Of a DNA stretch of 18,135 nt, positions 978-18,074 are shown one piece after another. Made by a program: the position numbers and the translations under genes. Numbering within the stretch: the first letter of the stretch is position 1; every line of letters begins with the position of its first letter. Under the pieces are notes generated by a model. That model made no database searches. It had not been told where the DNA came from and saw nothing but the letters and a program-made list of their open reading frames with translations. This DNA is from Willaertia magna (Eukaryota > Heterolobosea > Eutetramitea > Acrasida > Naegleriidae), in the NCBI GenBank assembly GCA_902984215.1, contig CADWAF010000238.1, positions 1-18,135 on the forward strand, written 5' to 3'.

Positions 978-3900
978 TTAATTGATATCATAAACAAATC
1001 TAACAGCTAATAACACCTTTCCTAATGGATCAACTAATTTACATTTCACACGAGTTTTAGATAATAAACTCCAAATAACAGGTCTTTCAGGTAAAGTAAT
1101 AACATATCTTTCTTCTTTTGGTTCTAAATCTGCAACTTTACTGACATATTCATGACGACTTGAAACAGTATCAATCTTTTCATAAAAAGAGCATTGTGAT
1201 AAATATTCATTAACATAAAATCTAATTTGTAATTTGTAAGTCCAACGTTTCTTCAATTTAATTAAAATTGGTGTTGATTTAACTTCAATTGGTTTTTGTT
1301 CATTATTAACATAAACATAAGCAGCTTCTAATACAATACCAGGTTCATTATGTTTTACGTGAACTGCTAAACCATTAGTACGCAACTCAGTCCAAGTTTC
1401 AGCTGCAGTGTCATCCAATAAGAAAGTAATAGGGAAAGTACTATTTGCACTTGGTTGGAATTGGAATTGATCATCAACATTAATTTTAGTTTGTTGATGT
1501 AAGAACTTGGCCTTTGCAGTTTGAAGTGCAGAAATAATTTCAGTTTTCTTTTCATCTTCATATAAATAATCGCCTGATTTTGGACAGTGTAAAACAAATA
1601 AGTTATCATCATAAGGACTGACAGAAACACCACTAATTTCTTCCAATGGGATCTTTCTCTTAATTTTGAATTCTTGTTCATCAATATTGTAAACATTCTT
1701 ATCTGTTACAATAATTAAACGATTTTGTTTCTTAAAGTTCTTATTGTATTTAACAATTTCACCAGAGTATAATAGTTGAGTGTCACCATTTCTAGCGAAA
1801 ATACGTTTTAATTTGTTTGTACCTTCAAGTCTTAAGTAATCTCCTAAATATTCTCTCATTAATGTTTGTCTATTTCTACCTTTTCTACCTGTATAAATAG
1901 AATCATTCTTATCTTGAATACCTCTTTCGTCCATACCATCATAAACTCTTAATGTAGATGTTGTTAAACGTTGTGACTTTCTATCTGGTAAATATTTATC
2001 AGAGTTATTGTTAAAACGAACTAAACAACCAATATTTGTTGGTGTTAATGTTGGACCAGTACATGTTGGATCATGTTTAAATTCAATTGTTTTAACTCCC
2101 TTACTTTCAACGGCTGGCTTATAAATAATCTTATCATCAATATTTACACGTAATTCAGGTAAATGTACATTATATTTACGTTTCTCTTTGTAAGCATCAC
2201 ATACAGCAGTAATTAATTCAGTCTTCTTTTTACATGAAGCAAACAAATCATGATCATCTGGTAAGTGAAGTACAAAGAATGTATCACGCATAGTTGATAC
2301 ACTAACTTGTGAAATTTTATCAATTGGAATAGCTCTATTAAATGAAAACTTTTCTGGGTCAACATTATAAATATAATTTGGTGTAACAACAACTTTTCTT
2401 TGTTGAGTTCTAAATCTCTTATTAACCTTAATCATAACATTAGAGAATAAGATATTACCATCAAATGCTGGATCATGTTTCTTAATTTGTTCCATATATT
2501 TTGGATTATCTTTAATTTGTAAATAATCACCTTGGAACCAAACCAATAATGAATCCTTTCTTCTTGGTTTTAAGCCATTATAGACATCATGAATTTCAGT
2601 TTCTTCAATTTCAATATTTGCTTCTTCTTCTTCAGAAGGTGTAATAACTTCTTCATCAACAACAACGTGAATTTCAGCACCAGTATCTTTAACAACTAAA
2701 GTAGTTGATGGATATAAAGGAGTTTCTTTTTCTTCAACAACCCAAGAGATTGGAATATCTTTAGTACCTTTCTTTGCGTGTTGTATCATTGTTTTTGGAA
2801 CAACATGTACTGGTAATGTTTGTTTAATCTTTTGTTGATAGGAATCAGCAATTGCCTCAATAATTTCAGTTTTCTTTGATCCTTCTAAGAATAAATCTTG
2901 ATCTATTTGGTCAATTACAAAGAAATTATCATGGTACGGTGAAACAGTGACTCCCTTAATAGTGTCTAATGGAACTCTACGATTAATTAAATAACCATTT
3001 GGATCTAAATTATAAACTGCTGCATCTGTTACCAATACAATTCTCTCTTGTTTCTTAAAACGTTTGTTATATTTTGAAACAATACCAGAAAATAAAACAT
3101 GAGCATCTCCATGATCCTTACAAATTTGTCCAAAGATTTCGGATTTTTCTAAACGTAAATAATCGTGAAATCCATCTTTTCTGTAGAACGAAACCTTTCT
3201 ACGTATTTTCTTTCCTTTGTAGATATCACTACTTCCAAAGGTATGAACAACCATGAATTGATTGTCACAATCATCTGTTAAGTGTTCAATATTTGCAACT
3301 TTTTTCTTTTGGAAGCCTTGTTTTGGAGAAGCCTTAAATTGAACAAGTAAATTACGCTTATTTTGCTTATTTCTTTCCTCAAAGTTAAAATCTTTACAAA
3401 TTTCAATTTTAAAGTTTGGATTCTTTTCTAAATTTTCTAAAAATTCATGCTTATTATCAAAGTCAATCAATTCATCACCAAAGTCATCCACTTCACTAAC
3501 TTTGAAACATACTAAATTATCTTCAAATGGTGAAGCTAAAACTTTCATAATATTCTTCATTGGAATCTTTCTTAATTGTTGGAAGTCATTGGAAACTGAA
3601 GTAGTATCTACCAAATAGATACTTCCTTTATCTGAGACTGTAATTAAGACTCTCTTTTTACATTTACCAAAATCAGTAATTCTTAAACCTTCTTGCTTGT
3701 AAATAATCATTTCAGTTTCTTCTTTCTTTTCTTCAGTTTCAACCATTACTTTAGCTAATTTCTTTTCCAATTGATCTGCCTTCTTCTTTTTATAATTTCT
3801 GAATGCCTTTTGAATAATCTTTGCCATTTCACCTCTTCTCTTTTGAATTCTTTCATCCAATTGGAAAACCTGAACTGGACTAAGGAAAACCTTTGAACTA

Positions 3901-6900
3901 CCTAAAACGAAATCATTAATACCATTATCAGTTAAAATAGTTTGACAAGCATCTTTAGATGACATTCCTTGTTTTGGATTAGGCCATGTTTCAGAAGATA
4001 ACATTTTATATCTTTCAACAAAGGTATCATATGGAATCTTGATTTGATACAATCCCATATCTCCACGAATAGAAATATTTTCTAAAATACCCAAGTATCT
4101 GATTTGATGATTAATAACGTCCTTTTCTAAGTAATCTGGACGTTTTTCATAGTTTGGAATAATACAACGAATGTGGTGATGTTTAAAATTACAACTTCTT
4201 AATTTTGCCATTAATTTAGTAATGTCTACTAAGAATTTTTGAGAAGTTGTTTGTTGAAGTTTATCTGATTTTGGTAGACTTTCATTCTTTGGGAATAGAG
4301 CATTTACTAAAGGATCTCTAGAAGTTTGTAAGGCAACCAAAAGATCACTAAATAATGTATCACGATTTTGATTAACCCAATCTTCTGCTGAATATTTAAC
4401 TCTAGCAGCAAAATGTTCTAATTCAAACTCTAAAATGTCACCTAACTTTGGAACACCAAAGTAAGGATGTTTGCCTAAGTGTGTTTTTAATTTTTCGACG
4501 TAATTCTTGTCATTACCATTAGGGAATAAAGATTCTTCATCTAGTAATGAAAGTACACTCATTGGTTTACCAGCAACTAATTGAACAGAAGAATCTGAGT
4601 CAAATGCCTTATTTCTTTGTTGTACACTACCAATAGTTTCAGCTGCTATTTCTTTTGTAAGTTCATCCTTTTCCTTCTTCAAAGAGTGTTGAATATTTTG
4701 TTGAATCTTTTCATTTACAAAGTTAATACAAAGTTGTTGATAACTATTTTTGTAATATTTAGAGGTATCTATCTTTGAATTATTGTTAGAAATTTTCTTG
4801 TGATCATAAATTTCAAAACCAAAAATATCTAAAATACCAATATTGAAAAATTGTTCTTCTGTACTCTTCTTTTTGCCTAATACAGAGGAAACTGATAAGT
4901 TAGGTATTCTAATAGAGCGATTAATTCTTTTCACTAACCACAAGAATAACCTTTCATAAATATTCTTTGCTAATGTGTCTCTGTTAAATGCAGCTTGATT
5001 CTTATTTTGAGGTTGTAAAACACTATTTGGTCCAGTCTTCATAGTTCTGTAAACTAATGAATTTCTTAACACTTCTGAATCAATTTGTAAAGTGTTAGCT
5101 GCTAATTTTAATGTACTTTCATTAACTACATCAGACGCAGCAACACCAGAAGGAATATTACGTTTTTTACGTTCTTCTTCATCAGTAACTTCACGAAATT
5201 CGATGTTACCTAATTGAAGAATACCTGCAACAATTTTAAATACAGCAAATTGTTCTCCAATAGACATTCCAATGGATGTCATTGCAGTTTTAGTATTTTC
5301 AAATTCCTGTTGTTCATCAATACCTTGAATAGTATAAGTATCTCCCTTTAGGTAATTGTAATCTTCTGCTGCTCCCAAATTTAATTGTTTTCTAATGTAT
5401 TCATCTGTTAAAAGTTGATAGAAGATATGGAAAGATCTTTCACCACTTCTTCTAGAAATCATTCTAGTTTTTTCCAAAACAATTGTAATAATTTCAGCAC
5501 CTTGTAATTGTCCTTTAAAATTAAAGAATAAATTAATAAATTTACCAAATCTACTAGAATTATTATTTCTAATAGTTTTTGCATTACCAAAAGCTTCTAA
5601 TAATGGATTAGTTTGTAAAATAGCATCACGAATTCTATCAGTTTCTTTTCCAGCAACAGAAATAGCTGACAAATATTCCATAATAATTTTTGCGGCTTCT
5701 GTCTTTCCAGCACCAGATTCACCAGAGATAATAATTGCTTGTCCATTTCCAGTATGGTTTTCAGACATACTGAAATCATCCAATACAAAACTATCCATTG
5801 CTTCATTAGATTCATTTTGTGATGAATCATTATTTTCTAATGCATTTTCAGTATTTTCTGAATTATTATTTTCTTTACTCAATTGTGAAATCTCAAGCAA
5901 TGTACGGTATGAATCTTCAGCTACATTATAAATATGAGGTGATAATTCAAATGGAATATGTGAATGGAATAAATGTTTAGTTTCATTATTATATAATCCT
6001 TTAATGTTCTTATAAGGATTAATAGAAATCAACATTGGACCAATTGATGTATAAATTTCATTTTGATAATAACGATTTGCTAAAATGTTTGTAATGTGCG
6101 ATTCTGACAATGGTGCATTCTCATTTTGATTTTTATTCTGTTCTTGTTTTAAAGTTGGTAAAATTGATAAATCATCTAATAATTCTAAATCTTCTAAACG
6201 ACGAACTCTAAAATCTTGTTGATAATCCTCAGCAACTGGTTTTTCATAATATTTTACACTCTTGATAACAGATGCTCTTTTAGATCTTCTATTATCTGTT
6301 TTATTTGATGTTGGTATAACTTGATGTTTTTCTTCAATAAATTGTTCATTTGCAATTAAATTTTTATCTTTTGGAACAATCATTGGTTTAATTACTGTAT
6401 TTTCATGAATCACAGTTGATTTACGTTGAATACCTGATACTTTTGATGCTTTTCTAAAAGGTAGTGGAACTGTAGGTTTCTTATTCTCAACAGCAGTATT
6501 ACTACTATTGGTTGTTGTATTATTTGGTGACAATGTTGTTGAATTATTTGTTGAATTTAATTTTGTTGGTACAGGAGGTTTAACAGAAGTTTTTTCATTA
6601 TTATTACTTTCTGTAGAAGAAGATATTGTTGTTACATTAATAATTGGAGGTTTTGTTGTTTCAACATTTGGTTGTTGATTAATAACAAGGCTTTCCTTTC
6701 TAGGAGATGTTATAGCCTTCTTTTCAGGTAATGGAGGAGCTGTAACACTATTACTTCTTGGAGAAGTAGTTGTTGTAGTAGTATTAGTAGTTCTTGGGGA
6801 TATTCTAGGAGATGTTCTTGGAGAGGTTACATTACCACTACTATTAGAACTATGGACAGAATTACTTCTAGGTGAGGTTATGGTGCTACTAGTTGCTGTT

Positions 6901-7343
6901 GTATTATCATTACTTCTAGGTGATATTCTTGGAGATGTTTTATTTTCAATAACGGAAGTAGAACGAGGAGAAGTTCTTGGAGGTAAAATTGGCGCTTGTT
7001 TTTTTTCTTCTTCTACTGTTGTTGTGGTAGATGATGATGTAGAAGGAAGGTTATTGATTTCAATTTTCGTTCCTTTAGGCATCATAACAGCCTGTTTTCT
7101 TGTTCTTCCTCCGATAGATGATGATGAAGCGGAAGTGTTGTTATCATTATTATTAAACTTTTTCAAACGATCCGTGAAAGAGGCTTCAATAGAAGAAGAA
7201 GAAGTGTTGTTATTGTCAACACTTGGTGATTTATCTTTTGCAGAATCAACTTTATTACTATTAATCTTTTCTTCGATAGAAACTGGTTGATTCTGTTGTT
7301 TTTCTTTCTGTTTCTTTTGTAATTCTGCAAGAAATGGATTCAT
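978..7343 (-). CDS. Class I-like myosin with SPR-repeat head extension, four TH1-like repeats and a RhoGDI-like C-terminus
   Basis: Uninterrupted 2121-residue ATP-driven actin motor. Residues 1-375 are a Ser/Thr/Asn-rich extension with nine Ser-Pro-Arg copies (125-215) and SH3-ligand-like proline motifs (PPLPEKK, VKPPVPTK, TVPLPFRK). The motor spans about 376-1165: P-loop GESGAGKT 541-548, switch I NNNSSRFGKF 593-602, switch II DIFGFE 839-844. An acidic Asn-rich insert lies at about 491-534, just before the P-loop. One IQ-like motif (IQKAFRNYKKK, 1177-1187) would bind a light chain. The tail has four TH1-like, PH-related repeats: about 1210-1330 (degenerate), 1370-1530, 1585-1745 and 1818-1960. 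Each later copy shows the basic K.NK.FK.Q.R segment, suggesting acidic-lipid binding, as in myosin I tails. About 1983-2121 resembles the RhoGDI beta-sandwich (EPGIVLEA, then YKLQIRFYVNE, then ITLPERP). Ordinary myosin I is 1000-1200 residues, so this is about twice that. Start chosen at the first ATG; a divergent promoter is shared with the BORCS8-like gene. Confidence 0.93.
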   Translation of the reverse strand: MNPFLAELQKKQKEKQQNQPVSIEEKINSNKVDSAKDKSPSVDNNNTSSSSIEASFTDRLKKFNNNDNNTSASSSSIGGRTRKQAVMMPKGTKIEINNLPSTSSSTTTTVEEEKKQAPILPPRTSPRSTSVIENKTSPRISPRSNDNTTATSSTITSPRSNSVHSSNSSGNVTSPRTSPRISPRTTNTTTTTTSPRSNSVTAPPLPEKKAITSPRKESLVINQQPNVETTKPPIINVTTISSSTESNNNEKTSVKPPVPTKLNSTNNSTTLSPNNTTTNSSNTAVENKKPTVPLPFRKASKVSGIQRKSTVIHENTVIKPMIVPKDKNLIANEQFIEEKHQVIPTSNKTDNRRSKRASVIKSVKYYEKPVAEDYQQDFRVRRLEDLELLDDLSILPTLKQEQNKNQNENAPLSESHITNILANRYYQNEIYTSIGPMLISINPYKNIKGLYNNETKHLFHSHIPFELSPHIYNVAEDSYRTLLEISQLSKENNNSENTENALENNDSSQNESNEAMDSFVLDDFSMSENHTGNGQAIIISGESGAGKTEAAKIIMEYLSAISVAGKETDRIRDAILQTNPLLEAFGNAKTIRNNNSSRFGKFINLFFNFKGQLQGAEIITIVLEKTRMISRRSGERSFHIFYQLLTDEYIRKQLNLGAAEDYNYLKGDTYTIQGIDEQQEFENTKTAMTSIGMSIGEQFAVFKIVAGILQLGNIEFREVTDEEERKKRNIPSGVAASDVVNESTLKLAANTLQIDSEVLRNSLVYRTMKTGPNSVLQPQNKNQAAFNRDTLAKNIYERLFLWLVKRINRSIRIPNLSVSSVLGKKKSTEEQFFNIGILDIFGFEIYDHKKISNNNSKIDTSKYYKNSYQQLCINFVNEKIQQNIQHSLKKEKDELTKEIAAETIGSVQQRNKAFDSDSSVQLVAGKPMSVLSLLDEESLFPNGNDKNYVEKLKTHLGKHPYFGVPKLGDILEFELEHFAARVKYSAEDWVNQNRDTLFSDLLVALQTSRDPLVNALFPKNESLPKSDKLQQTTSQKFLVDITKLMAKLRSCNFKHHHIRCIIPNYEKRPDYLEKDVINHQIRYLGILENISIRGDMGLYQIKIPYDTFVERYKMLSSETWPNPKQGMSSKDACQTILTDNGINDFVLGSSKVFLSPVQVFQLDERIQKRRGEMAKIIQKAFRNYKKKKADQLEKKLAKVMVETEEKKEETEMIIYKQEGLRITDFGKCKKRVLITVSDKGSIYLVDTTSVSNDFQQLRKIPMKNIMKVLASPFEDNLVCFKVSEVDDFGDELIDFDNKHEFLENLEKNPNFKIEICKDFNFEERNKQNKRNLLVQFKASPKQGFQKKKVANIEHLTDDCDNQFMVVHTFGSSDIYKGKKIRRKVSFYRKDGFHDYLRLEKSEIFGQICKDHGDAHVLFSGIVSKYNKRFKKQERIVLVTDAAVYNLDPNGYLINRRVPLDTIKGVTVSPYHDNFFVIDQIDQDLFLEGSKKTEIIEAIADSYQQKIKQTLPVHVVPKTMIQHAKKGTKDIPISWVVEEKETPLYPSTTLVVKDTGAEIHVVVDEEVITPSEEEEANIEIEETEIHDVYNGLKPRRKDSLLVWFQGDYLQIKDNPKYMEQIKKHDPAFDGNILFSNVMIKVNKRFRTQQRKVVVTPNYIYNVDPEKFSFNRAIPIDKISQVSVSTMRDTFFVLHLPDDHDLFASCKKKTELITAVCDAYKEKRKYNVHLPELRVNIDDKIIYKPAVESKGVKTIEFKHDPTCTGPTLTPTNIGCLVRFNNNSDKYLPDRKSQRLTTSTLRVYDGMDERGIQDKNDSIYTGRKGRNRQTLMREYLGDYLRLEGTNKLKRIFARNGDTQLLYSGEIVKYNKNFKKQNRLIIVTDKNVYNIDEQEFKIKRKIPLEEISGVSVSPYDDNLFVLHCPKSGDYLYEDEKKTEIISALQTAKAKFLHQQTKINVDDQFQFQPSANSTFPITFLLDDTAAETWTELRTNGLAVHVKHNEPGIVLEAAYVYVNNEQKPIEVKSTPILIKLKKRWTYKLQIRFYVNEYLSQCSFYEKIDTVSSRHEYVSKVADLEPKEERYVITLPERPVIWSLLSKTRVKCKLVDPLGKVLLAVRFVYDIN
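6699..6974 (-). repeat. Coding array of nine Ser-Pro-Arg motifs in the myosin head extension
   Basis: Nine SPR tripeptides, seven in the form TSPR and two as ISPR, lie within 91 residues of the myosin N-terminal extension. Some are back to back (TSPRTSPRISPR). At the DNA level the repeat is a degenerate unit of the type (t/g)cttggagaag or tctaggagatg on the plus strand. Each unit is a minimal proline-directed kinase site (Ser-Pro) next to a basic residue. Confidence 0.85.
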
Positions 7344-7961
7344 ATTATAAGATGATAGAAAGATGTTTTTACTAAAACTTTGGATACAATCTTAATCTCA
7401 ATATCAAAAATAAATTATTGTCAATTTGATGGCGTCACTTGTTATTGGTAATGTTCGCTTTTTCTTTATGTTTTTTATTAGTGAAATGTCAATGACTATC
7501 CAATACATGAAAATGTCATCTAATCCATTGTCATTAAAAATTGTAGTTAAACAAACCTTAACAGTCAAAGATGACAAGTAGATTACGAATTGAAGGAAAA
7601 TTTGCTTTTTAATGAGAAATGCAAATTTACAGAAATGAAAACTTTTCCCTCTTAATTGTAGTAATAAATGTAAACTTTCATTAATAATACCTTTTAACAG
7701 ATTTTATCGTGTTATTCGAGCGCTAAAAAAATGTAAAGATTTTTTAGCCTTACTTGCTTTTTTCATTTCTTCTTTTTTGTTCTTCCTCTGCTAGTGACTA
7801 CTAAAAAGAAGTAAACAATGCTAAGGCGAAATGTTGGAAAGAATAAAGTGTATTGTTTATGAAACAAACACTAGAAACATTTAAACGAGGGATAAAGAGA
7901 TCTGAAAGAGTTGACGAATTTCCTTCTAATTGTCATCCATCCTTGAATTTCATTCAAAAAA
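7344..7961. other. Divergent intergenic region between the myosin and BORCS8-like genes
   Basis: 618 bp without a convincing gene. It must hold the promoters and 5' untranslated regions of both flanking genes, which point away from each other. It contains a TGACG half-site (minus strand, within 7433-7440, plus-strand context ggcgtcac). I see no TATA box I would defend, no repeats and no RNA gene. The short minus-strand open frame overlapping its right end is antisense to the BORCS8-like exon 1 and is not supported. Confidence 0.6.
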
Positions 7962-9166
7962 ATGTCTTCTTTCTTTTCTACAATCTTTTCTAATGTTTCT
8001 TCTTCTCCGGTAGGGAATAATAAACAAATCTCTACTTCAACACTACTAACTGATAATAATCCATTAACGCTTACCATTAGCGATCCAAATTATCAATTAA
8101 CAGATTTTGAAAAGGCTATTTTCCTTTCCGATTCAAAAAATAGATATATTTCTACAGAAACTAAAGAAAGCGCAAAGGATTTAACTTTGCAATTTTCTTC
8201 TTATTTACACCACTTTGCAAATGAACCAAGTATTGGATTATATAGAGTTTCAGAACATGTAAAGAAAAAGGTACCTAAAATAGTGGAAGAGAAGGTAAGT
8301 TATTTTTTACAATTCATTTTTTTAACATTTTACAAAATTTTTTAAAGAGAAAACAAGTTAAATTAAATAAAAATATACAACAAGTAATAATTGATAATTG
8401 TTTTGCTATTGATCATTGTAAACAATCAAATGAAAAAGCAAAACAATTATTACAAAATTCAATTGTAAATTTACAAAATTTTTTAAAGAAAGATTTAAAT
8501 AATTTGAAAGAAAATAAAATTGAAAATAAAATAAATGAAAAGATTAATGAAGATATTGCAATAGATCCAACCGTAAATAATTTACAACAAGAAAAAATAG
8601 AAAATTATTCTCCAATGAATGACCAAGGAAATGATTTTATTCCAACCATTGTCACAAATAATAATAACTATAATAATAAGAACAATGTTGAAGATAATTA
8701 TTTAAGTACTGGTGAAGAAGAGGAAAGTAAAACTGAATTAAGTAATTTAGAAAAGTTTGAAAAGGAAATTCAAGAGAAAGATGAAGCAATGAATAAAATT
8801 TTACAAAATGAAGAAGAACAAAATTTAGAGAATTTATCTGTTTCAACAACTTTACAAAACATGTCTCACCGTATTTCAAATTTAACTAAAGAAGAGGGAA
8901 ATGAAGAGATGGAAGGTAATGAAGAAAAGAAAACTTTTTCTTATCAATCAATTGACGATGATGAAGAGGAAGTAGTTGTTCCTCCTTGGAAAGTTGAGAT
9001 TTTACAAAAATTTACACAAAAATTTATTCATTTACGAGATAATGGAACTTTAAATAGTCTGAATACTCCTAGTTCACCAAGCTCAGCAAGAAAGAGAATA
9101 GAAATTATAAAGAAAGAAAACTTTAATGAGATTAAACAGAAATTTGAAAATAGCGACAAGCAATAA
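7962..9166 (+). CDS. BORCS8-like protein (BORC complex subunit, MEF2BNB family), two exons
   Basis: Exons 7962-8294 and 8348-9166 join in phase 0 to give 383 residues; without splicing the frame stops at 8345. The ATG follows an A6 run. Residues about 68-165 match the BORCS8 family: the signature FANEPSIGLYRVSEHV (85-100) corresponds closely to the family's ANEPS-x-x-LYR-x-x-EHV block, followed by a helical stretch ending in KQLLQNS. In animals BORCS8 is a small (about 120-residue) subunit of BORC, which sits on lysosomes and recruits the GTPase Arl8 to couple them to kinesin. Here the core is flanked by a Ser/Thr-rich N-terminus of about 65 residues and by a long acidic, Glu/Asn-rich C-terminal extension (about 170-383) ending in a Ser/Pro patch and basic helix. 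The core assignment rests on motif recognition; the function of the extensions is unknown. Confidence 0.75.
8295..8347 (+). other. Spliceosomal intron of the BORCS8-like gene (53 nt)
   Basis: Canonical GTAAGT donor at 8295 and an AG ending at 8347 after a T-rich stretch. Removing 53 nt joins codon 111 to an open frame that continues to 9166. The exon 2 frame has no ATG near its beginning, so exon 2 is a continuation and not a separate gene. An alternative AG at 8349 would break the frame. Confidence 0.85.
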
Positions 9167-9259: not shown

Positions 9260-9342
9260 TGGTCAGGGTGGGATTTGAACCCACGAACCCATGCGGGATT
9301 AGATCTTAAGTCTAACGCGTTTGACCACTCCGCCACCTGACC
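9260..9342 (-). tRNA. tRNA-Leu (anticodon UAA)
   Basis: Minus-strand tRNA of 83 nt including discriminator A. The seven-base acceptor stem is perfect (GGTCAGG with CCTGACC). The anticodon arm is TTAGA-CTTAAGA-TCTAA, giving anticodon TAA, which reads UUA, a heavily used leucine codon in this AT-rich window. The long variable arm is that of a class II tRNA, as expected for leucine. The internal promoter is seen as a TGGCGGAGTGG-type A box and GGTTCAAATCC B box. There is no intron and no encoded CCA. Confidence 0.95.
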
Positions 9343-9542: not shown

Positions 9543-9546
9543 CATT

Positions 9547-9627
9547 CGCGACGAGCAGGATTCGAACCTGCGCGGGTTTCCCCAATGGATTTCAAGTCCA
9601 TCGCCTTAACCGCTCGGCCATCGTCGC
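9547..9627 (-). tRNA. tRNA-Ser (anticodon UGA)
   Basis: Minus-strand tRNA of 81 nt including discriminator G, the expected serine identity base. The acceptor stem GCGACGA with TCGTCGC is perfect. The anticodon arm ATGGA-CTTGAAA-TCCAT gives TGA, reading UCA. The long variable arm, with a GGG/CCC pairing, is that of a class II tRNA. The A box (TGGCCGAGCGG) and B box (GGTTCGAATCC) are canonical. It lies 204 nt from the tRNA-Leu gene in the same orientation but has its own terminator, so the two are separate transcription units. Confidence 0.95.
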
Positions 9628-9779
9628 ACTGATTATATGAAATTGGTGGAAGAATACAGGATTTGGAAGCTTAGTGGGTGTTGTGGAAAAAACTGGGGCT
9701 TCACTCATCCAAATAGCCTATCGCAAAGCTGTCAGCAACAAATAAACAGAATCGTTTTGGGGTTAATAAGCAATAAAAA

Positions 9780-10675
9780 ATGATTAATTTTCGCACCAGA
9801 CAGCCTGGGTTGTGTAAAATTGCGAAAGCAGAAAAAACTATTGTCAACGACAGCGAGTATGTAAATAAACAAAAGAAAGGATTATTAATTCATAGCTTAA
9901 CTGAATTTTTACCCTTTTCTACAGATCATTTAACTGACCTCTTAATTCCTTTTGTTTCCCAAACTCGCGCTGACTTTGTTCCTTTTTTAACTCAATTGGA
10001 TATGATAAATTGTGAATCTTTTACTGATATTAACACTTATACCTGTGAAGAATATAAAAATATGTTTAAAAATTACAATATTTTATTTATTGGCAGCTTA
10101 GTAAACATTGAAAATCAAGAAATAACTAAAGAGTTATTGCACTTGATTGAATTAAAGAAAATTTCTATTGTTTTTTTAGCTTTTTGTCCTTTAGTGCTAC
10201 AATTAAATTATTTAAACAACATCAATGAAAGAGTTGAATCTAATTACTTGTGCAATTAAATAATAGTTTATTAAAAAAATTAGTTTTTCATTGCAAAAGA
10301 AATACTTTAGAAGAATTTTATTTTAAATACTTCAAACTCGATTACAATAACGAAAATGTTGCCTTGGAAATTAAATATTGCAATTATTATGACTCTAAAG
10401 AATTTATTTTAAATAATTGGATGCATTTAATAAAAGTTAATGATGGCGAAAAATATAGTTTATTATTAAATAAGAATTATAAGGTATTGTTAAGCCATTT
10501 AGATGAGAAAAATAATTTATATTTTTCACCTTTGGTTGTTGATTTGTTTTATTATTTTGTAAAGTATTTATTATTTGATTGTGATAATCGTGAGCGTGAA
10601 GAGAATGAATTTAAAGAAAAATTATTGTTCCTTAACAAAACTTGCATTAGTTTTACCTGGAACCCATGTAACTAA
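9780..10675 (+). CDS. Unrecognised protein gene with its reading frame broken once (or very short intron)
   Basis: The first part, 9780-10259, starts at an ATG after an A-rich run and encodes 159 residues. The second open part, 10244-10675, lies in another frame and has no ATG until 10421, so it looks like a continuation. The switch must fall inside the 16-base overlap 10244-10259. Splicing gtgcaattaaataatag (10250-10266) would restore the frame, but 17 nt is far below the other introns here; a one-base deletion or an assembly error fits as well. Together the parts give about 300 residues rich in Leu, Asn, Tyr and Lys, with a hydrophobic stretch around ISIVFLAFCPLVLQL, perhaps a buried strand-helix and not clearly a membrane segment. 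I recognise no family. Its 3' end overlaps the opposite-strand ADF-like gene by 54 bases. It may be a decaying gene. Confidence 0.5.
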
Positions 10676-12985: not shown

Positions 12986-13611
12986 CTTGTTTTTGTACTT
13001 TCTATTTTATTACGCACTATACATTCAACTATATTCTACTTACTGTTTGTTATTGATTTTCAATGAAATTATGAAATCAAAGTGATGTGGTTGTCAACTG
13101 ATGCCAAGTTGGATTTCTAAGTTTTATATTTTTATTTAAATTTGTTAAACAACTCAATACCACATTCACTTTTTAAAGCTTTGGAAGAAAAAAACCCCAA
13201 TTTACTTATTTAAATGACTCGGATCAAAAAAATACATATTGAGTAATTTAAAATTACTTTATGTGGGTTGTTATTGCTTGTAATGTTGATTGAACTCATT
13301 AACAGATTAAATAGCGAACTAATTTGTTGGTTCATTTCGTATCATTAATGAAAGCGATTCTTAAAAGCCTCTATGTCAGTGTTTGGTAATCAAGAATATC
13401 TTCTTTTATGAAAAAATATGCTTTGCATTGCGCACGTTTCATTTCGAACAAGGATTTGAATAATAACAGGTTAAGATAATATCTAATACTAGTTTATTTC
13501 CACCTTCTTATCAGACAAATTGAACCTTATTATAAATACCACCATTTTTTGCATTTTTTTTGGTTGTGCCCCTTCCCGCCAAAAAACGGTTCAAAATTTA
13601 AATTTAAAAAA
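12986..13611. other. Divergent intergenic region between the papain-like gene and MCM4
   Basis: 626 bp with no convincing gene. It carries promoters and 5' ends for both genes. The only element I would name is the E2F-like site close to the MCM4 start. The open frame can be extended upstream of the MCM4 ATG to 13549, but only from a TTG codon, and that stretch is not conserved-looking. Confidence 0.6.
13573..13584. promoter_or_regulatory. E2F/DP-like site upstream of MCM4
   Basis: TTCCCGCCAAAA reads TTTTGGCGGGAA on the other strand, matching the E2F consensus TTTSSCGS with extended flanks. It lies 28 bases before the MCM4 ATG. MCM genes are classical E2F targets in animals and plants. A GC-rich core is unusual in this AT-rich intergenic sequence. 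Confidence 0.6.
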
Positions 13612-15621
13612 ATGATTTCTTCGGACGAGGTAGAACCAGTTGTTAGCGCTCCACAAATTGATACCGAGTATTGTAGAACATCATTTTCAAACTATTTATT
13701 AGAAAATGTATTAAATAATGCGCAAAAGAGACAATGTTTATTTGTTCATCCTACACTGCAAATAGATGGAAAAGAATTAAAACAATTTGATCCTACTTTT
13801 TATGATAATTATTTAATACCATTCCCGGAGACAACAATATCTTTAATGGATGTTGTTTTAAATGAAGAATTTATTAGAATTTATGGAGAAACAGAAATTA
13901 CTTTCTCTGTGTCAATAATAAACCTAGAAAATGTAAAAGCAATGAGAGATTTAAATCCAACTGATATAGATAAATTAGTTTGCATTCAAGGAATGGTTAC
14001 TAGATTATCAGAAATTATTCCTGACATGAGAGGTGCTTTCTTTAAATGTTCCAGTTGTTCTAGTACAAAATATGTTCCTTTAGGTGGTGGTAGAGTTAAA
14101 GAACCACCTAAATGCACAAATGACCAATGTACACAATCTTGTTGGACAATGATACATAATAGATGTGCTTTTTATGATAAACAAGTAATTAAATTACAAG
14201 AAACTCCTGAAAGTATTCCAGAAGGAGAAACACCTCATACAGTTAATTTATGTGTTTTTGATACACTTGTAGATAGTGTAAAACCTGGCGATAGAGTGAA
14301 AGTGACGGCGATTTATAGAGCTATACCTATACGTGTTAGTTCCAAACAAAGAAAAGTAAAAAATATTTATAAAACTTATTTAGATGCTATTGGTTTTGAG
14401 AAATTAGGTATAGGTATTGTAAGTACGGAAATGATGGCTACAAATAGTGAAAAAGGAATAAGTTTAACTCAACAAGAAGAGGAAGAAGAGTTATTGATTA
14501 AGCAAATGAATATAACGAAGGAAGATGAGTCACAGATAAAAAATTTAGCTGCAGATCCAAATCTTTATCAAAAATTACAAGATAGTATTGCTCCAGGTGT
14601 TTTTGAAATGACAAGTGTCAAGAAAGGAATTTTATGTTTGCTCTTTGGAGGAGCCAACAAAAAATTAGTAAATGGTCAACTCAGAGGAGAGATACATATC
14701 TTATTATGTGGTGATCCTGGTGTCAGTAAATCTCAATTGCTAATGCAAGTACATAAAATCGCTCCAAGAGGTATTTATACATCTGGTAAGGGAAGTTCAG
14801 CTGTAGGTTTAACTGCATACGTAACAAAAGACCCAGACTCTGGTGAAATGGTTTTAGAAAGTGGTGCTTTAGTTCTTTCTGATCTTGGTGTTTGTTGTAT
14901 TGATGAATTTGACAAAATGTCAGATCAAACTCGTTCTGTTTTGCATGAAGTAATGGAACAATGTACTGTTTCAGTTGCTAAGGCAGGTATTATTTGTACA
15001 TTAAATGCCAGAACGTCTATATTGGCAGCAGCCAATCCTAAAGAATCAAGATATAATCCAAACTTATCTATAGTAGAGAATATTCAATTGCCACCTACTT
15101 TATTATCTCGTTTTGATTTAATTTTCTTATTACATGACATTCCAGAAAAAGAGCAAGATGAAAAACTAGCAAAACATATTATAGCTTTACATTTTGATGT
15201 TCCCTTAGATGTCACTGCTGAAACCATTCCAAAAGATTTATTAGCTAAATACATTGCTTATGCCAGACATAAAATTCATCCAAAAATATCAGAAGAAGTT
15301 AAAAGTTATTTAGTTGAGGGATATTTAGGTTTAAGAAGATTTGGTTCTCACAAAAAGAATATTACAGCAACTACAAGACAATTAGAATCCTTAATACGTT
15401 TATCTGAAAGTTTAGCTAGAATGAAACTCAAAGAAAAAATAGATAAAACCGATGTTGAAGAGGCTTTAAGATTAGTTAGAGAATCTATTTTCAAAGCTGC
15501 CTTCGATCCTAAAACAGGTACAATTGATATTGATTTATTACAGACTGGAAAATCTCATGCTGAAAGAGAAGAAGAAACTGAAGGGGTTGACGACAATGAC
15601 ACAATAGAAGTAGACCTATAA
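13612..15621 (+). CDS. MCM4: MCM4, replicative helicase subunit (short form)
   Basis: Encodes 669 residues, one of the six MCM2-7 AAA+ subunits that unwind DNA in the CMG helicase. It is MCM4 and not a paralogue because of RDLNPTDIDKLVCIQGMV, the block around IHNRCAFYDKQVIKLQETPE, and NARTSILAAANP with ENIQLPPTLLSRFDLIF. The zinc-finger cysteines are 146, 149, 168 and 173 (C-x2-C...C-x4-C, as in yeast Mcm4). Walker A GDPGVSKS is 367-374, Walker B IDEFDK has Asp431/Glu432, the arginine finger is Arg500 (SRFD) and the sensor 2 Arg is 589. The family is usually 850-930 residues. Missing here are most of the disordered N-terminal extension, the main DDK (Cdc7-Dbf4) target, and the C-terminal winged helix: after IDIDLLQTG the protein ends in a short acidic tail. 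The start is the ATG after an A6 run; upstream codons extend only to a TTG. AATAAA begins one base after the stop. Confidence 0.96.
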   Translation: MISSDEVEPVVSAPQIDTEYCRTSFSNYLLENVLNNAQKRQCLFVHPTLQIDGKELKQFDPTFYDNYLIPFPETTISLMDVVLNEEFIRIYGETEITFSVSIINLENVKAMRDLNPTDIDKLVCIQGMVTRLSEIIPDMRGAFFKCSSCSSTKYVPLGGGRVKEPPKCTNDQCTQSCWTMIHNRCAFYDKQVIKLQETPESIPEGETPHTVNLCVFDTLVDSVKPGDRVKVTAIYRAIPIRVSSKQRKVKNIYKTYLDAIGFEKLGIGIVSTEMMATNSEKGISLTQQEEEEELLIKQMNITKEDESQIKNLAADPNLYQKLQDSIAPGVFEMTSVKKGILCLLFGGANKKLVNGQLRGEIHILLCGDPGVSKSQLLMQVHKIAPRGIYTSGKGSSAVGLTAYVTKDPDSGEMVLESGALVLSDLGVCCIDEFDKMSDQTRSVLHEVMEQCTVSVAKAGIICTLNARTSILAAANPKESRYNPNLSIVENIQLPPTLLSRFDLIFLLHDIPEKEQDEKLAKHIIALHFDVPLDVTAETIPKDLLAKYIAYARHKIHPKISEEVKSYLVEGYLGLRRFGSHKKNITATTRQLESLIRLSESLARMKLKEKIDKTDVEEALRLVRESIFKAAFDPKTGTIDIDLLQTGKSHAEREEETEGVDDNDTIEVDL

Positions 15622-15869: not shown

Positions 15870-18074
15870 ATGAGTTCAAACAATGGCAATCCCTATGCTG
15901 CAAAACAACTCAATGAAAGAATAAACAGCCTTAAAAACTTGATGAATCAATTTTCTCAAAATCAATCCCATTCACCACCTAATAACAATACAAATACAGT
16001 AAATGGTCCAATGTATTCTTTTACCTCACCAACAATAGCAAGGAAAAGTGTGTCTCCGGTTAAGAAGTCAATGTATGGCAGTAAACATCTTCAAGATAGT
16101 TTAGACCAACAACCTACTATGGAATATAAAACCCCAATTAACACTCACCAAAGTAATGGATGGATGACTGGAAGTATGACAACTCCAATCATGGATTTAC
16201 CAGTTGATGATGATGAGGTTAAAGTATTAAGAGAAAATAACCAAAGATTATCTATTAAGATAACACAACTTCAAGATAATATCCATAATTATGCTGTAAA
16301 GTTACAATATTCTAATGAACAAACTAGAGAATTAGAACAAAAATTGAGGGTTAGTAGAAATGAATTAGATATGGAAATTGAAAAGAGAAGATCAACTGAA
16401 AGGGAGTATCAAGATGAAATTAGAAATATACAACATAATTTGGAAGAAGTGCAAGCTCAGTTAGAATTAAGCGAACATAAAGAGAAAATTGCTTCGGAAA
16501 GTAGAGAAGCACTCGAAAACATTAATAGAGATTTAGATAAATCTAACAAGGAAAAAACACAACATATAATTGATTTATCAAGAGAGCTTAGTCAAAAGAA
16601 AACTGAATTAGAGGCATCATTAAATCAAATTTATGAACTAAGAGCTAAAATGAAGCAATACGATTTAGATTTAGAAGAGGAGAAAATAAGGTGGTCAAAG
16701 GCAGCAGATCAACACAAGAACGAGGTAAGAGATATTAAGGAAAAATATGAAGATAGAATTAAAAAACTTACAAAACACATAGAAAAGGAAAAGAATAGAA
16801 CTGAACAAATGTTAGAACACTTTAAAGGACAAGTTACCATTCTAGAAGATCAAGCAATTAATTTTAAAAAACAAATGGGTGAATTACAACAAACAAATAA
16901 TTTACTGCAAGTACAATTACAAAATGCTGCTCAAAGAGAGAAATTCTATAAAACTAAGGTGGACTCTGTACAAGATTCTGTTGGAGAGCAAAAAACTCAA
17001 TTTGCTTTAATGCAACAAACCTATGTCCATACTCTTAAGGAAAAGGAGGATTTAGCTCTCTCAGAAAAGAAACTTAAAGAAGAAATGAACGATGTAGAAA
17101 AGAAACATGAGTTGAAAGTAGAAAAATTAAATAATGAAATAACAAGATTAGAAAAATCCATACAACAACAACAACAAAAGATTCATCAATTAACAATCCA
17201 TAATACTACATTGGAAAAGAAAATAAATCAATTAGAAAATGAAAACTTTATTTTAAGAACTGAATCACAAAAAGAACTAGGAATAAAACAAGAGGAGATT
17301 AACAAATGGACAAGACTCCATGAATCAAATGAAAAAGAAAAACAAACAAAGATTGACAGACTTCAACGTGATTTAAATGAGAAACAAGAATATATTGAAA
17401 AGCTTAAGGCTGAGTTTACAAATCAATCTCAACATTATCAACAACAATTGGAAATGATAAGGGATGAAATAAATGATAAAGTAACAGATAATAGTGAAGC
17501 TATTGAGAAACAAGATTTGTTTTTAAAACAATTGGCTTATATGAATGAAAGAGTAAAACTATTAGAAGGTGAAAATGAATTACTCCACAGAAGAATTCAA
17601 CAATACGAAGCTGGATCAAATAATGAAAGAAGTGATTTTATTGATAAATATCATGATAACCTCAAGGAGGCATTAAGATTACAAAGAGAACAATTACTAC
17701 AATTAAAAGAAAAGGAACAAGATTTATTAAAAGAACAAGAGGAAAAAGAACATAGTTTGTTGTTTGAGGATGATTTAGAAGAAGCTAAAAATGAAGTAAA
17801 TGAAATTAAGGAAACAAATACTTCAGTGGATGAAGGTTACGCTTTTAAAGATGAAGAATTGATATCTGACGAAGATGAAAACGATAGCAATGAGGAAGAA
17901 GATGAAGAAGATGAAACTGAAAAGTTGGAAGAGCTTATTCAACCAAGAAAGTTCCACAATGTAATTGTAAGAAATGATGACTACTTTAGCCCAACCCTTT
18001 CTACCTTAAGAAGAACAGTTGACCTTTCAGATAATGACAATAGTTTTACCAACTCTGTAGAAAATGATCAATAA
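15870..18074 (+). CDS. Long coiled-coil protein with CDK-type sites and acidic C-terminus, family not recognised
   Basis: Encodes 734 residues, starting at an ATG after an A6 run. Residues 1-110 are disordered, Ser/Asn/Pro-rich, with proline-directed sites: Ser53, Ser62 (SPVKK, a full CDK consensus), Thr88 and Thr105. Residues about 113-655 form nearly continuous heptad-type coiled coil, rich in Glu, Lys, Gln and Leu, with a QQQQQK run near 430. Residues about 660-705 are very acidic. The tail has further Ser-Pro and Thr-x-Ser residues. There is no membrane segment, motor or catalytic motif. Such proteins are often centrosome, basal body, Golgi or cytoskeletal scaffolds, but coiled coils give misleading similarity, so no name is given. 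It lies 248 bp behind MCM4 in the same direction and shares its E2F-like 9-mer, which with the CDK site suggests cell-cycle control (inference). The stop TAA is inside an AATAAA. Confidence 0.9.
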   Translation: MSSNNGNPYAAKQLNERINSLKNLMNQFSQNQSHSPPNNNTNTVNGPMYSFTSPTIARKSVSPVKKSMYGSKHLQDSLDQQPTMEYKTPINTHQSNGWMTGSMTTPIMDLPVDDDEVKVLRENNQRLSIKITQLQDNIHNYAVKLQYSNEQTRELEQKLRVSRNELDMEIEKRRSTEREYQDEIRNIQHNLEEVQAQLELSEHKEKIASESREALENINRDLDKSNKEKTQHIIDLSRELSQKKTELEASLNQIYELRAKMKQYDLDLEEEKIRWSKAADQHKNEVRDIKEKYEDRIKKLTKHIEKEKNRTEQMLEHFKGQVTILEDQAINFKKQMGELQQTNNLLQVQLQNAAQREKFYKTKVDSVQDSVGEQKTQFALMQQTYVHTLKEKEDLALSEKKLKEEMNDVEKKHELKVEKLNNEITRLEKSIQQQQQKIHQLTIHNTTLEKKINQLENENFILRTESQKELGIKQEEINKWTRLHESNEKEKQTKIDRLQRDLNEKQEYIEKLKAEFTNQSQHYQQQLEMIRDEINDKVTDNSEAIEKQDLFLKQLAYMNERVKLLEGENELLHRRIQQYEAGSNNERSDFIDKYHDNLKEALRLQREQLLQLKEKEQDLLKEQEEKEHSLLFEDDLEEAKNEVNEIKETNTSVDEGYAFKDEELISDEDENDSNEEEDEEDETEKLEELIQPRKFHNVIVRNDDYFSPTLSTLRRTVDLSDNDNSFTNSVENDQ

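Follow-up and report, generated by a model that had tools for sequence, protein, structure and literature searches.

The tail of a class-I-type myosin from the heterolobosean Willaertia magna almost certainly ends in a RhoGDI fold, which is predicted with good confidence for its last 124 residues. The gene lies on the reverse strand of the stretch analysed here (hereafter, the window), 18,135 nucleotides of contig CADWAF010000238.1 in assembly GCA_902984215.1. An earlier reading made from the letters alone (the sequence-only reading) had claimed a RhoGDI-like domain fused to the C-terminus of this myosin, and predicted models together with structure matches now support both the fold and the fusion. 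No description of a myosin with a RhoGDI-like domain was found in the literature searched, in which subscription papers were mostly out of reach, and no paper there combined the terms "myosin", "RhoGDI" and "TH1 domain". Term searches likewise found neither "GDI" nor "dissociation inhibitor" in the main text of two surveys of myosin classes (PMC3942036, PMC5583752) and of a 2025 preprint on Naegleria myosin 2 (PMC12139777). As far as these searches go, the combination of a myosin with a RhoGDI-fold tip is undescribed.

Layout of the myosin and predicted fold of its tip

The minus-strand frame is open throughout 978-7391, and the ATG at 7343 gives a product of 2121 residues, identical (100% over the searched region, equal length) to the hypothetical protein ABK040_010980 (P0002). 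Pfam finds a myosin motor followed by TH1, as in class I myosins, and structure matches agree on the TH1. We have filed the protein as a class-I-type myosin variant, composed of parts of known kinds and standing outside the RhoGDI family. Its features are as follows, the four TH1 positions having been placed by a profile search of the genome:

978..7343, minus strand: myosin coding frame including the stop codon, 2121 residues, uninterrupted
3882..5753, minus strand: best-scoring Myosin_head (PF00063) stretch, residues 531-1154, profile positions 82-678, E-value 5.2e-177
3291..3764, minus strand: first and weakest TH1, profile positions 25-177, E-value 2.4e-11
2697..3203, minus strand: second TH1, E-value 1.5e-28
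2064..2564, minus strand: third TH1, E-value 3.6e-35
1341..1877, minus strand: fourth TH1, residues 1823-2001, full profile 1-185
1353..1397, minus strand: end of TH1 inside the region that the sequence-only reading had given to the new domain, residues 1983-1997
981..1352, minus strand: RhoGDI-fold domain, residues 1998-2121 (124 residues), equivalent to RhoGDI1 65-199

Two PF00063 stretches were counted in the myosin, the second presumably lying just N-terminal of the best one. Pfam applied to the whole protein gave four Myosin_TH1 stretches (E-value 2.3e-105), with a PH_3 match within the fourth, and the predicted structure of this fourth TH1 matched the tail of myosin-1c as far as residue 1999. 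The RhoGDI-fold domain directly abuts it, without a linker. The last ~140 residues had been read as neither TH1 nor SH3; this holds for residues 1998-2121, for which Pfam and structure comparison support neither an SH3 nor a further TH1, and fails for residues 1983-1997. Nine Pfam families are listed for the whole myosin at an E-value of 1 or below, and none of them places its best stretch within the final 120 residues.

One TH1 per myosin tail is usual, and a membrane-binding array of four is unusual. Four tandem TH1 stretches were present in all five proteins examined (the window protein, P0003, P0007, P0011 and P0013). The N-terminus of the window myosin is long, of low complexity and rich in serine, threonine and asparagine. 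P0003 from Naegleria fowleri carries two WW stretches (best 460-490) N-terminal of its best motor stretch; the Pfam list of the window protein contains no WW.

The fold is supported by Foldseek, where the predicted domain retrieved RhoGDI structures at all of ranks 1-31. The structure comparison proposed with the sequence-only reading thus came out for RhoGDI, and C2, arrestin or another unrelated sandwich as the best match is ruled out. The next-best matches included other carriers of hydrophobic ligands; UNC119 stood at rank 35 (E-value 4.8e-5) and was not among the 50 VIA entries listed, while a viral structure library gave weak matches only. The likeness to RhoGDI (ARHGDIA/B/G, Rdi1; PF02115) comprises the Ig-like fold over RhoGDI1 65-199, the order of strands, the YKLxIxFxVN strand, the P...Y and LPE-like blocks and Tyr110. 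In contrast to RhoGDI, the domain is shorter (124 residues, aligned to 135 of RhoGDI1), is part of a myosin, stays under the Pfam cut-off, lacks the N-terminal switch-binding arm and has lost most of the acidic grip residues.

The sequence signals are fainter. When the C-terminal pieces of the window myosin and its 12 relatives (see below) were scanned singly, up to an E-value of 10, Rho_GDI (PF02115) was matched by 4 of the 13, and seven other listed families each matched one member. A re-scan of ten pieces gave three Rho_GDI matches (E-values 1.1e-4, 5.7e-4 and 2e-3), and the Rho_GDI matches span roughly residues 40-164 of the piece and 55-191 of 193 profile positions. With hhalign, the alignment to human and yeast RhoGDI sequences had a probability of 74 (E-value 2.8e-5), and that to six RhoGDIs from databases a probability of 71 (E-value 3.6e-5); the two follow the structural register up to about residues 138 and 145 of the piece. 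In the reverse test, no RhoGDI exceeded 11.5 bits against the domain profile, yet 48 of 120 real sequences outranked every one of 240 decoys. PDB chains were also searched by sequence, and neither the domain nor its profile retrieved a RhoGDI there.

Three results speak against the relationship: the identity between the domain and RhoGDI is ~18%, which alone is no proof of homology; the best Rho_GDI score, 22.4 bits, lies below the curated cut-off of 26.5, which none of the matches listed reaches; and the window's own C-terminal piece matched no Pfam family, Rho_GDI included. Nevertheless, the weak sequence signals agree with the strong fold signal, so that common descent with RhoGDI is probable. 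A chance resemblance of an unrelated Ig-like beta-sandwich, which would accord with the low identity and sits badly with the unbroken run of RhoGDI structures, is very remote.

Relatives and conservation of the domain

A protein search yielded 13 proteins at an E-value of 1e-3 or below out of 251 candidates, all of them with Myosin_head and TH1 annotation and the RhoGDI-fold end. They include two from Willaertia (one being the window's own), one each recorded under Naegleria fowleri, N. gruberi, N. lovaniensis and Acrasis kona, and one from EukProt. The same fusion, for which the sequence-only reading had proposed looking in other heterolobosean genomes, is therefore present in Naegleria species, Acrasis kona and the other Willaertia protein. 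NCBI taxonomy places Willaertia and Acrasis in Heterolobosea, as the abstract of PMC9928731 does Naegleria; the RhoGDI-fold myosin end is conserved in the Heterolobosea sampled. A family-profile search limited to short proteins gave nine more at the same threshold, all close relatives with 48-64% identity. Six of these have TH1 annotation; of the rest, P0018 starts TH1-like by eye and the other two are fragments of 97 residues. Among these nine matches, the domain was thus nowhere clearly free-standing. Since the same end occurs in 12 other full-length proteins, in one of which (P0013) it is transcript-derived going by the record name, and in the nine short ones, an error of assembly or frame is unlikely.

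Within the W. magna genome, two places carry the domain at an E-value of 1e-3 or below (C64 and C71), and the second copy, G000:C71:43220-43753 (L002), is 64% identical in the domain region. P0011 (the other Willaertia protein), P0008 and P0010 have a common 8-residue insertion in a loop of the domain. Two other TH1 myosins were found in the genome: L009, with an SH3 after its TH1, and L008 (C756), a fragment whose frame stops just past TH1, close to the expected start of a RhoGDI fold, barring an additional exon downstream. The window myosin differs from class I myosins such as myosin-1c and the SH3-tailed type in its four consecutive TH1, where L009 and L008 have one each, and in its RhoGDI-fold tip, since the tails of the others either stop at that point or continue with SH3.

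Among the relatives compared, the myosin is best conserved in this domain. Over gap-free columns the motor has a mean pairwise identity of 0.521 and the last TH1 one of 0.531, while the domain reaches 0.731, a value partly inflated by the use of words from residues 1920-2121 to fetch these relatives. Domain identity exceeded motor identity in 78 of 78 pairs; residues 1951-2000, which lie within the fetching stretch, reached just 0.48. Such high conservation of the tip suggests an important cargo or partner, and its strength favours a specific partner over bulk lipid. The domain is also basic, with an isoelectric point of 9.2-9.9 in all 13 proteins compared with 7.1-9.1 in six RhoGDI C-terminal halves, a moderate shift.

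Possible roles of the tail tip

Rho_GDI matches start at profile position 55 or 56 of 193 and the residues preceding the domain match a TH1 structure, so the N-terminal switch-binding arm is absent, as had been supposed from the letters. Excerpts of PMC8622166 describe this arm in GDI1 as contacting the switch regions of the GTPase, report that human GDI1 without its 58 N-terminal residues no longer binds Rac1, and place E109, D140, E163 and E164 opposite the polybasic Rac tail. We mapped these residues onto the 13 proteins by block alignment. The E109 position is K, T or R and the E163 position R throughout; at the E164 position five of the 13 have D and the remainder P, K, R or T; and the D140 position, whose register is uncertain by one residue, is possibly the invariant E2065. 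Hence, the acidic cluster for the polybasic Rho tail is not kept as a whole. Another excerpt (PMC8253491) has Arg186 of Cdc42 capping the lipid and bonding RhoGDI Tyr110, Gln130, Asp140 and Tyr144; in all 13 proteins Tyr110 is retained as Tyr2036 and Gln130 is replaced by Glu2055.

Our first choice, held tentatively, is that the tip takes up the prenyl or acyl tail of a partner, because its closest working analogy is an arm-less lipid-tail carrier. We infer that the domain belongs to the broader set of such carriers (RhoGDI, PDE6-delta, UNC119), as one that has no arm. PDE6-delta and UNC119 share the sandwich fold, and PDE6-delta, according to an excerpt of PMC5758567, also has no N-terminal regulatory arm and is proposed to take up lipid tails already detached. 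A PDE-delta/UNC119-like lipid or adaptor domain had been the fallback of the sequence-only reading and is now the preferred mechanism. PDE6-delta is not the best structural match within the fold group. Under this mechanism the TH1 array, a domain that Pfam describes as actin- and lipid-binding, would hold the motor on the membrane, leaving the tail tip as the site for cargo or a partner. The tip might accommodate both the lipid tail and a protein surface of a single kind of membrane protein, possibly a small GTPase, and the motor might be recruited by, or pull on, that lipidated partner. Since the arm that clamps the switches is missing, along with most of the acidic grip, no inhibition of guanosine diphosphate release is expected, and the domain would act like PDE6-delta, by passive uptake, or as a docking domain.

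Several observations weigh against lipid-tail uptake. The charged residues at the mouth of the presumed pocket are largely changed. The position of Ile122, which we take to be a pocket-lining residue of RhoGDI and use for no verdict, is Y, H, F, P or K, and C, A or T stands in place of Ile177, which an excerpt of PMC8253491 discusses as relevant to the lipid environment. Furthermore, 51 of the 124 domain positions are invariant and 19 of these are charged, a share that is richer than in the motor (23/94) and no richer than in the last TH1 (16/39).

Second in our ranking stands docking of a protein without any lipid, a possible reading in which the RhoGDI fold survives purely as a framework for a conserved surface, and this surface binds one specific protein (an adaptor, a light chain, an actin regulator or a membrane receptor), like the SH3 tail of other class I myosins. 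It would suit the loss of aliphatic residues at the Ile122 and Ile177 positions, the SH3 that follows TH1 in L009 and the 25 of 51 invariant domain residues that are polar or charged, although this last share is not above that of the last TH1 (22/39). In the 13-protein alignment, however, the pattern of strands persists, as does the majority of core hydrophobics, and the presence of other hydrophobic-ligand carriers among the next-best structures also tells against docking.

Third and unlikely is true Rho handling, with prenylated Rho/Rac bound in cis, TH1 replacing the arm, and then delivered or extracted. RhoGDI has the most similar fold and is matched by more members than any other sequence family, the lipid-capping contacts are partly maintained (Tyr110 kept, Gln130 as Glu, Asp140 possibly as Glu), and an excerpt of PMC7285305 reports that omics data of W. 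magna include a Rho-family protein. The delivery or extraction of Rho/Rac proposed by the sequence-only reading nevertheless lost ground, given the missing arm, the failure of arm-deleted GDI1 on Rac1 and the general loss of acidity at E109 and E163, with E164 acidic in the minority given above. An excerpt of PMC9928731 also reports one RhoGDI gene in the Naegleria core genome, so the usual RhoGDI work need not fall to the myosin. Searches of the W. magna genome with the Pfam family and a human RhoGDI gave no match, which is uninformative, as the family search was blank in control genomes too and the protein search had no control. Fourth, and more improbable still, the domain might fold back on the motor or TH1 and be released by the membrane or by phosphorylation. 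Such autoinhibition would fit the high conservation and the direct abutment to TH1, but the model of TH1 plus domain has a predicted template modelling score (pTM) of 0.53, so that no fixed packing of the two is confidently predicted, and no result here ties the domain to the motor.

Genomic surroundings and significance

The remainder of the window holds the following features:

7962-8345, plus strand: BORCS8-like frame (BLOC-1-related complex subunit 8), E-value 2.8e-14, divergent to the myosin
9260-9342, minus strand: tRNA-Leu (TAA)
9546-9628, minus strand: tRNA-Ser (TGA)
9780-10259, plus strand: weak match to the FAM91 C-terminus, E-value 9.3e-4, under the cut-off
13549-15621, plus strand: MCM helicase subunit (OB, P-loop and lid domains)
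15870-18074, plus strand: long frame of coiled-coil-like composition (by eye), no convincing Pfam family, best E-value 0.004, under the cut-off

Myosin tails define cargo, and annotation by Pfam cut-offs would overlook a RhoGDI-fold domain of this kind. It is tempting, though doubtful, to suppose that the tail tip extracts the prenyl or acyl anchor of one specific signalling GTPase from the membrane, or retains it there, so that a single molecule handles both the placement of the GTPase and actin transport, possibly in all Heterolobosea. If lipidated proteins are bound, the domain would join the shuttling of GTPases by their lipid tails to membrane-bound motors, two separately studied systems, in amoebae only distantly related to animals and to Dictyostelium. 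Should its role be protein docking alone, its conservation above that of the motor still marks a partner that can be fished out directly.
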